64,000 bases of DNA, taken from assembly GCF_002305895.1 (NCBI RefSeq), contig NZ_CP022203.1, positions 2,892,501 to 2,956,500 on the forward strand, in the 5' to 3' direction. Under the pieces are notes generated by a model that did no database searches, was not told where the DNA came from, and was given only the letters and a program-made list of their open reading frames with translations. How positions within the stretch are numbered: position 1 is the stretch's first letter; every line of letters begins with the position of its first letter. The translations under genes were made by a program, and so were the position numbers. Source of the DNA: Corallococcus macrosporus DSM 14697. GTDB lineage: Bacteria; Myxococcota; Myxococcia; Myxococcales; Myxococcaceae. Below, in pieces: positions 1,689-3,320 of the stretch.

Positions 1689-1783
1689 CCGTCCGCGGCG
1701 CGCCTTCCGTGTCTGGCGGCCAACGGGGCCTCACACCGTCGACACGTTTACCGTGAGTGCGCGCCTGTCTATTGAATCGCTCC

Positions 1784-1815
1784 CGGCAGGAGGCGGTCTT
1801 CGCCTGCCGTGTTTT
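1784..1815 (+). terminator. Terminator-like hairpin after the MBL hydrolase gene
   Basis: CGGCA pairs with TGCCG and an inner GGCG pairs with CGCC around a GTCTT loop, with a GGA bulge, followed by TGTTTTC. It lies about 100 bases after the hydrolase stop and 35 bases before the repeat-protein start. It could therefore end the upstream transcript or act as a leader hairpin of the downstream gene. Confidence 0.45.
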
Positions 1816-1849
1816 CTCGCAGTCCAGGCGTCGAGTCAGGAGCGTTCTC

Positions 1850-3133
1850 ATGTTTCAGGAGCAGCTTTCATCCCAGTCGCAGCAGATGTTCGGCGAGTCG
1901 CTGAAGGAGCGGGTCACCGAGGCCGTTCGCGAGCAGATTGTCTCCACGATTGAGGACCGGCTCGGCCGGGAGGTGCGGGAGCGCGTGGCCGAGGCCATCC
2001 GGCACTCGCTGTCCGAGCGCGGCGGCGGGTTCCCGCAGGGGTACGGCCAGGGGTACGGGATGATGCCCCAGGGGTACGGCATGCCGGAGCCGGAGCGCAT
2101 CGCGGACGCGCTGTGCTCCCGGCTCGCGGACACGCTGCGCGAGCGCATCGCCTCCGTGGTGCACGAGCGCATCCGTGACGGCATCCGGGAGCGGCTGGCC
2201 GAGTGCGTGCGCGCGGCGCTGGTCGAGCAGTGGCAGATGTCCTTCGGCGGCCCGGACGCCGAGCGCCTGGCCGAGGCGGTGCGCACCCGGCTGCTGGAGT
2301 CGCTGCGCGAGCGCATCAACACCGCCGCGCATGACGGCGTGCGCGAGGCCCTCCGCGAGCGGCTGGCGGACACGCTGCGCTCGGTGATGTCGGAGCGCAT
2401 GCCCGGCTTCAACCCGAGTGACGCGGAGCGGCTGGCGGACGCCATCCGCGGGCGCCTGGCCGAGGCCCTCCACGAGGGGCTGGTGTACAGCCTGCGTGAG
2501 CGCGTGCGCGAGGCCCTGCGCGAGCGCCTGTCCGAGGGGCTCCGCGGCGCGGTGTCTCGCCAGTGGGGCGGCATGGCGGCGGGCTCGTTCGACCCAGACC
2601 GCATCGCGAACTCCCTCCAGGACCGGCTGTCCGAGGGGCTCCGGGAGCGCATCAACGCGGCGGTGCGCGAGCGCGTCCGCGAGGTGCTGCGTGAGCGCAT
2701 GGGCGAGCTGCTGCGCGGCGCCATGGCCCGTTACCGGGGCATGATGCAGCAGGGCGGCATGCCGCAGGGCATGATGATGGGACAGGGGGGGCACGACGTG
2801 GAGCGCCTGGCGGATGCCATCCGTTCGCGGCTGGCGGACTCCCTGCGTGAGCGGCTCGTGAGCAACATGCGCTCGGAGCTGGACTCGGCGCTCCGCTCGC
2901 AGCTCCCCGAGGCCGTCCGCTCCGCGCTCGGCGAGGCGATGCGCGCGGGCCCGTCCATGTCCCAGACGCACCACTCCGGGGGCTCCGTCGACCCCGAGCG
3001 CATCGCGAGCGCGGTGCGTGAGAGCGTGAGCGCCGACGTGCGTGAGCGCGTGGGCGAGATGGTCCGCGAGCGCGTGTCCGAGGTCGTCCGCAACGAGCTG
3101 TCCAACGGCGTCCACCACACGCCGCAGGCCTGA
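1850..3133 (+). CDS. Arg/Glu-rich protein of eight-residue repeats, 427 aa
   Basis: I do not recognise this family. The ATG at 1850 is preceded by CAGGAG at 7 bases; the frame is open further upstream but without a good start. The protein consists of seven blocks of roughly 40-50 residues (about 15-53, 80-125, 137-180, 190-236, 249-292, 316-365, 381-420). Each block is a run of octads of the form R-L-A-D-x-L-R-E, most opening with D/P-x-E-R-[IL]-A. In block 2 every fourth residue from I84 to V120 (84, 88, 92 and so on) is I, L or V, ten in succession, with Arg and Glu on the other faces. Linkers are rich in Gly, Met and Gln (for example residues 57-78 and 296-314). No signal peptide or membrane segment is visible. 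Long, highly charged amphipathic helices, perhaps oligomeric or filament-forming or surface-binding, are likely; the role is unknown. The gene is monocistronic, with hairpins on both sides. Confidence 0.8.
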   Translation: MFQEQLSSQSQQMFGESLKERVTEAVREQIVSTIEDRLGREVRERVAEAIRHSLSERGGGFPQGYGQGYGMMPQGYGMPEPERIADALCSRLADTLRERIASVVHERIRDGIRERLAECVRAALVEQWQMSFGGPDAERLAEAVRTRLLESLRERINTAAHDGVREALRERLADTLRSVMSERMPGFNPSDAERLADAIRGRLAEALHEGLVYSLRERVREALRERLSEGLRGAVSRQWGGMAAGSFDPDRIANSLQDRLSEGLRERINAAVRERVREVLRERMGELLRGAMARYRGMMQQGGMPQGMMMGQGGHDVERLADAIRSRLADSLRERLVSNMRSELDSALRSQLPEAVRSALGEAMRAGPSMSQTHHSGGSVDPERIASAVRESVSADVRERVGEMVRERVSEVVRNELSNGVHHTPQA

Positions 3134-3141
3134 TGTTCCGT

Positions 3142-3179
3142 CTCCCTGGAGGCGTGGCTCGCCGCCCGCCTCCGGGGAG
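3142..3179 (+). terminator. Intrinsic terminator of the octad-repeat gene
   Basis: A 13-base stem (3142-3154 pairing with 3167-3179, one G-T wobble) with a 12-base loop begins 8 bases after the stop codon and is followed by a short CTGTTT run. Confidence 0.55.
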
Positions 3180-3320
3180 GCTGTTTCGCCTGGGCGGTGT
3201 GCGCCGGGCCCTGATGGGGTCCGCTCCTTCCTCAAGCTGCTCGCGCCTGTCCCTGGGCGCGGTGGTGTCACCGGACGCGGGTGTCCTGGCCGTGGGGGGC
3301 GTGCGCCCGCGCGAGGGGCG

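Follow-up and report, generated by a model that had tools for sequence, protein, structure and literature searches.

A strict four-residue hydrophobic period in a seven-block helical protein of Myxococcota and its predicted four-helix bundle

The window analysed here, a stretch of 64,000 nucleotides from Corallococcus macrosporus DSM 14697 (contig NZ_CP022203.1, positions 2,892,501 to 2,956,500), encodes a 427-residue protein composed of seven blocks of about 45 residues. Its hydrophobic residues recur with a period of 4.00, this spacing is conserved among relatives and the charges are balanced; the protein family is undescribed in the libraries that we searched. In the explanation that we prefer, to which we assign a probability of roughly 45%, blocks 2-5 form a strongly right-handed, antiparallel four-helix bundle and, together with self-associating helices 1, 6 and 7 carried on flexible linkers, make up a structural scaffold in the cytoplasm. 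The helices and the bundle are predicted by AlphaFold2; the handedness, the assembly and the scaffold role are what we infer.

Results and Discussion

The octad-repeat gene

The gene is located at 1850-3133 on the plus strand of the window, from an ATG at 1850 to a stop codon at 3131-3133 (Table 1). Compared with its nearest named relative in the genome contigs searched, from Myxococcus xanthus AM003 (91% identity), codon positions 1, 2 and 3 carry 26, 15 and 59 base changes, respectively. This third-position excess, together with a start and an end shared with relatives, identifies 1850-3133 as the true coding frame: the methionine at 1850 is kept in relatives and the longer open reading frame starting at GTG 1757 is not, and the proteins have in common an N-terminal MxQEQ...QQMFGE and a C-terminal ...NG...PQA/PLA. 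All 110 ILVMF sites remain ILVMF in M. xanthus AM003 which, with the third-position excess, argues from sequence comparison that the four-spaced pattern is under selection. The protein contains 66 R+K for 67 D+E, and no signal peptide or membrane segment was apparent when it was read by eye.

Open frames of 467 and 289 aa that mirror the repeat are present on the minus strand (window 1855-3271). These long antisense frames look like by-products of GC-rich codons. Because they mirror the repeat, protein searches also match this strand, with E values as low as 1e-12, and in three relatives (L059, L063 and L066) the antisense frame was the one selected by a GC3-based gene picker.

The window shares with M. 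xanthus and two further relatives a hairpin, located about 40 nt 5' of the ATG, that is followed by a T-rich, terminator-like sequence and then by a near-invariant stretch. This element could terminate the upstream gene or serve as an attenuator. The fold z-score of the leader (1750-1849) is about 0, and an Rfam scan of the locus returned no match.

Table 1. Features of the octad-repeat gene and its leader (window coordinates).
Feature	Position	Strand	Basis
Conserved leader: hairpin CGGCAGG...CCTGCCG and near-invariant stretch before the ATG	1750..1849	+	Alignment with three relatives; terminator-like scan
Octad-repeat gene, 427 aa	1850..3133	+	Frame, codon-position changes, charge counts, start region kept in relatives
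Helix/block 1, residues 5-55, low-confidence packing	1862..2014	+	AlphaFold2 helix; block position
Gly/Gln/Met/Tyr-rich linker, residues 56-80	2015..2089	+	pLDDT <50 for residues 52-77
Predicted four-helix bundle domain, blocks 2-5, residues 76-305	2075..2764	+	AlphaFold2 on this stretch alone
Helix/block 2, residues 81-130	2090..2239	+	Fourier spectrum; AlphaFold2
Helix/block 3, residues 137-183	2258..2398	+	Fourier spectrum; AlphaFold2
Helix/block 4, residues 189-240	2414..2569	+	Fourier spectrum; AlphaFold2
Helix/block 5, residues 249-301	2594..2752	+	Fourier spectrum; AlphaFold2
Gly/Met/Gln-rich linker, residues 302-317	2753..2800	+	pLDDT <50 for residues 302-325
Helix/block 6, residues 318-365, low-confidence packing	2801..2944	+	Fourier spectrum; AlphaFold2
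Helix/block 7, residues 382-418, low-confidence packing	2993..3103	+	AlphaFold2; block comparison

Hydrophobic residues recur every four residues

The original prediction described seven blocks of octads with uninterrupted 4-4 spacing, and the Fourier spectrum of the ILVMF residues agrees, with a maximum at 3.95-4.05 in each of the seven blocks (power 2.15-2.87), the hydrophobicity peak being at 4.00. Spectral power at 3.5, 3.6 and 3.67 reaches just 0.01-0.24 per block and is, at 3.5 and 3.67, at least 9-fold below the peak near 4.0. The canonical heptad or hendecad spacing (3.5-3.67), which the prediction had named as the outcome that would speak against it, is thus not found. An ordinary coiled coil misread by eye is refuted at the sequence level by these values, and we give this explanation next to no weight.

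The exact spacing proposed for block 2 also holds, its run having 11 ILV members at residues 84-124 instead of the ten at 84-120 first counted. Blocks 4 and 5 each have a four-spaced ILVM(F) run of 11 members and block 6 one of 12; in blocks 1 and 7 the run has 10-11 members, and in block 3 a single alanine divides it into 5+6. Shuffling the protein 2000 times produced two runs of 10 and none that reached 11. No other protein resembles it among the 585 that we sampled from this genome, in the window and in 40 stretches of 20 kb: their longest 4-step run is 10, in an apparent membrane segment, and 44-residue windows with comparable power at 4.0 occur in one other protein (2 windows) versus 93 in the octad-repeat protein.

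We aligned 212 distinct blocks from 49 sequences (the window gene and its relatives, some genes being entered twice) and obtained the 45-residue consensus ERIAEALRERLADALRERVVSGVRERVREALRERLGEALRSALSE. ILVMF residues make up 90-100% at each of the 11 ridge positions (2, 6, ... 42), whatever the helix phase, proline is nearly absent, and positions 19-21, in the middle of the block, are occupied by small uncharged residues. Even positions opposite the ridge are acidic and odd positions are arginines; from one window to the next, the angle between acidic residues and ridge stays at about 160-190 degrees. Block 7 most resembles block 1 (40% identity). The period of 4.00 and a ridge that is hydrophobic at all phases bear out the drifting stripe of the original prediction. 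The stripe does wrap the helix within one block, slightly over once, along about 45 residues and not the 36 proposed; the Gly/Met/Gln linkers between blocks and the myxobacterial source were correctly seen.

The octad-repeat protein resembles ER/K single alpha-helix domains in being Glu/Arg-rich with long helices. In ER/K helices the residues paired at i+4 are oppositely charged. The octad-repeat protein differs in that its i+4 pairs are like-charged (5.9 per block, against 1.2 opposite pairs) and in that every fourth residue is hydrophobic.

Two other roles, surface coating and protection, are less likely than the packing arrangements discussed below. Long repeated helices with local amphipathicity and balanced charges would suit amphipathic helices coating a lipid, granule or other interface, as apolipoproteins or phasins do. 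A surface-binding helix presents the same face throughout, at a turn of about 100 degrees per residue, and the known coating families of the apolipoprotein/phasin type use 11-residue repeats. The hydrophobic moment of a whole block is 10.7 at 90 degrees but 1.4 at 100 degrees, so that at the alpha-helical angle no face stays constant; the surface-wrapping helix put forward in the original prediction is therefore not upheld, and we regard a coating role as quite unlikely. An LEA-type desiccation or stress protectant, disordered in the wet state and helical on drying, would account for the near-exact charge balance (charges cancel to within two units in the window protein and in each of the ten relatives examined) and for repeats and Gly-rich linkers in sporulating hosts. 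The 11-residue hydrophilic repeat of LEA proteins is not found, the repeat being of 8 residues with a hydrophobic residue every fourth, and a hydrophobic class fixed at 90-100% is a tighter constraint than a disordered hydrophilic protein would show; with a confident AlphaFold2 bundle also against it, this role appears very unlikely.

The only Pfam match above cut-off is a pattern artefact

The original prediction knew no named family with this pattern, and the library searches support that view. DUF445 (PF04286), a membrane protein family of unknown function that includes E. coli YjiN, is the sole Pfam family to match above cut-off (37.3 bits for a gathering score of 33.8), the one point in favour of membership. 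The reversed octad-repeat sequence scores 49.1 bits, more than the native one, and two shuffles that keep solely the pattern of hydrophobic, polar and Gly/Pro classes obtain no score, so that the match reflects pattern and not ancestry. In addition, several relatives score below the cut-off. YjiN itself reaches 399.8 bits and differs in having hydrophobic, membrane-spanning-like stretches near both ends, where the octad-repeat protein has no apparent membrane segment, and in its weak, broad period. With homology ruled out by the reversed-sequence and class-shuffle controls, we hold membership in DUF445 to be highly improbable.

The PF04286 profile accepts four-spaced helical repeats above its gathering score, even reversed. 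This is a trap, since a family with octad repeats is admitted on pattern alone, and DUF445 may have been wrongly assigned to other repeat proteins. At E 0.001, 7 Pfam families match an ideal octad repeat of period 4 made of E, R, L and A, against 108 for a similar ideal heptad repeat, which indicates that the octad pattern is sparsely represented in Pfam.

Other candidates were rejected as unconvincing: GvpQ and a T3SS translocon model in NCBIfam (both far under cut-off), LeoBC in PADLOC (15 bits) and 14 short PHROGs matches on the repeats. Sequence searches of the PDB were no more convincing, with no match at E 0.01 with the protein and a best score of 23 bits with the profile.

Relatives and genomic neighbourhood

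Myxococcus, Pyxidicoccus, Corallococcus and a small number of further Myxococcota have relatives of the gene, which occur in 34 of the 195 Myxococcota genomes and 8 of the 90 genera searched. Within the range of our searches the family does not extend beyond Myxococcota, and most members are from Myxococcaceae; no relative was found in the viral contigs searched. The gene is single-copy in the C. macrosporus DSM 14697 genome, and Myxococcus sp. RHSTA-1-4 has two diverged copies at separate sites (L058 and L066). Members from Myxococcaceae have seven blocks and distant members five or six, as expected of a modular scaffold. In one genome of genus g21, a copy at G103:C7:46330-46778 (minus strand) matches just model positions 1-84 and 353-422, in adjoining stretches, which gives the impression that the middle blocks have dropped out. 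The gene also occurs within a Myxococcus neighbourhood, at 65-93% protein identity, in a record titled Comamonas sp. KCTC 72670 (BNCN01000003.1), which is probably mislabelled.

An MBL-fold hydrolase gene upstream and glyoxalase-like and S46-peptidase-like genes downstream (the last two named by eye) are kept among close Myxococcus relatives only, and other lineages have different neighbours. The gene therefore seems to stand alone, and no conserved partner gene that would support a scaffold role emerged when neighbourhoods were compared across relatives.

A predicted four-helix bundle

In the AlphaFold2 model of the full protein each of the seven blocks is one uninterrupted helix. pLDDT is about 90-95 across most of the length of helices 2-5, 50-60 for helices 1, 6 and 7, and below 50 in the Gly/Met/Gln-rich linkers (Table 1). 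Blocks 2-5 modelled alone gave a mean pLDDT of 90.2 and a pTM of 0.84; the underlying alignment is thin, with 18 related sequences, and AlphaFold can yield spurious coiled-coil models. In the prediction, blocks 2-5 are continuous helices packed side by side in a four-helix bundle, and since loops of only 5-8 residues join helices of 47-53 residues, these would be arranged as antiparallel up-down hairpins. A mid-block helix break (N-cap or proline), raised by the presence of proline in a few relatives, was rejected: proline amounts to 2% there and AlphaFold2 gives a single helix.

Foldseek searches of the PDB and BFVD returned no match at E 0.001, and the VIA structural matches are generic four-helix bundles. 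The best of them, the designed four-helix bundle 4uos, has similar helix lengths and aligns over 188 of 188 residues with a Z of 12.1, below the level of about 13 above which a bundle match means more than a common arrangement; with an rmsd of 8.3 A and a TM of 0.32-0.36, it shares at most a topology and has a different shape. The stalks of dynamin/Mx proteins (MxA, MxB, Drp1 and SynDLP) match as a four-helix bundle over the whole domain, at Z 9-10.6 and rmsd mostly of 4.6-6 A, which is likewise under the bundle threshold and tied with generic matches (5-14% identity, TM at most 0.37). Furthermore, dynamin-like proteins have a GTPase domain, whereas the octad-repeat protein consists entirely of repeats and linkers and has no Pfam GTPase match.

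Proposed right-handed winding and its limits

Right-handed coiled coils and bundles (hendecad 11/3, pentadecad 15/4 and the YadA stalk 19/5) share with the octad-repeat protein a hydrophobic period above 3.63, for which right-handed winding is expected. Among the natural cases cited, YadA is the most extreme, with a periodicity that reaches 3.8 locally (PMC4786415), compared with 4.0 over about 40 residues in seven blocks here. An upper limit of about 3.9 is expected for accessible coiled coils, with 4.0 named as outside (PMC4786415), and the period of the octad-repeat protein falls outside the accessible range of about 3.33-3.9. In dimeric coiled coils a spacing of 4 is seen repeated at most once, and 4+4 repeats frequently kink the helix (PMC9369452). 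In the seven blocks of the octad-repeat protein this spacing recurs about ten times in succession, and some of the helices may kink.

In bundle geometry, a left-handed periodicity of 3.5 places 3 of the 11 ridge residues within 60 degrees of the core; at 3.8 the figure is 7 of 11 (11 of 11 within 100 degrees), and at 3.9 all 11 face the core. A strongly right-handed bundle is favoured because, by geometry, no other bundle points most of the stripe inwards. Toy docking of two straight helices, which recovered the textbook optimum of +22 degrees for the heptad, placed the 4.0 stripe at about -45 degrees with a closer approach (8 A). Small uncharged residues at block positions 19-21 fit such a close approach. 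The unusual superhelix of the original prediction is accordingly the reading that we favour; AlphaFold2 supplies uninterrupted helices and a confident bundle, and the geometry suggests the handedness.

The main rival is a packing in which near-straight helices present different faces along their length to several helices or copies, each helix being buried all round, in a criss-cross or lattice assembly or in a sticker-and-spacer condensate whose spacers would be the Gly/Met/Gln linkers. The ridge has no weak side, all phases being equally hydrophobic, and a 4.0 stripe on two straight helices makes roughly one third as many contacts as a heptad stripe (8.4 versus 27 in the toy score), so that more partners would be needed; the low-confidence linkers would also fit. 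Against this stand the confident single-chain fold of blocks 2-5 and the 5-8-residue loops, which hold neighbouring helices antiparallel with their ends close. We consider this packing rather unlikely; burial all round may apply above all to the terminal helices.

In the right-handed bundle, each block would be one continuous alpha-helix bearing a single i, i+4, i+8 hydrophobic ridge, with the acidic residues facing away from the ridge and arginines in between. The middle four would fold back on one another, and a right-handed supercoil, with a twist near or beyond that of the most extreme right-handed coiled coils known, would turn the ridge to the core: its centre would lie in the bundle core and its ends would turn to the flanks, the small uncharged mid-block positions forming a tight waist. 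Helices 1, 6 and 7, on their linkers, would probably find partners among themselves or in further copies of the protein, and this pairing could build a larger cytoplasmic scaffold. A stronger version, in which a natural family packs at a true period of 4.0 residues per turn, in a right-handed supercoil past the accepted limit and kept across Myxococcota, strikes us as possible but somewhat doubtful.

A period of 4.0 maintained over about 40 residues, seven times per chain and in dozens of species, makes the limit of about 3.9 directly testable. Either these helices are wound tighter than was thought possible or partners surround each of them, and both outcomes would be useful for protein design. 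The octad-repeat family would represent a new variant of the helical bundle and, if its period is truly 4.0 in space, a new class.
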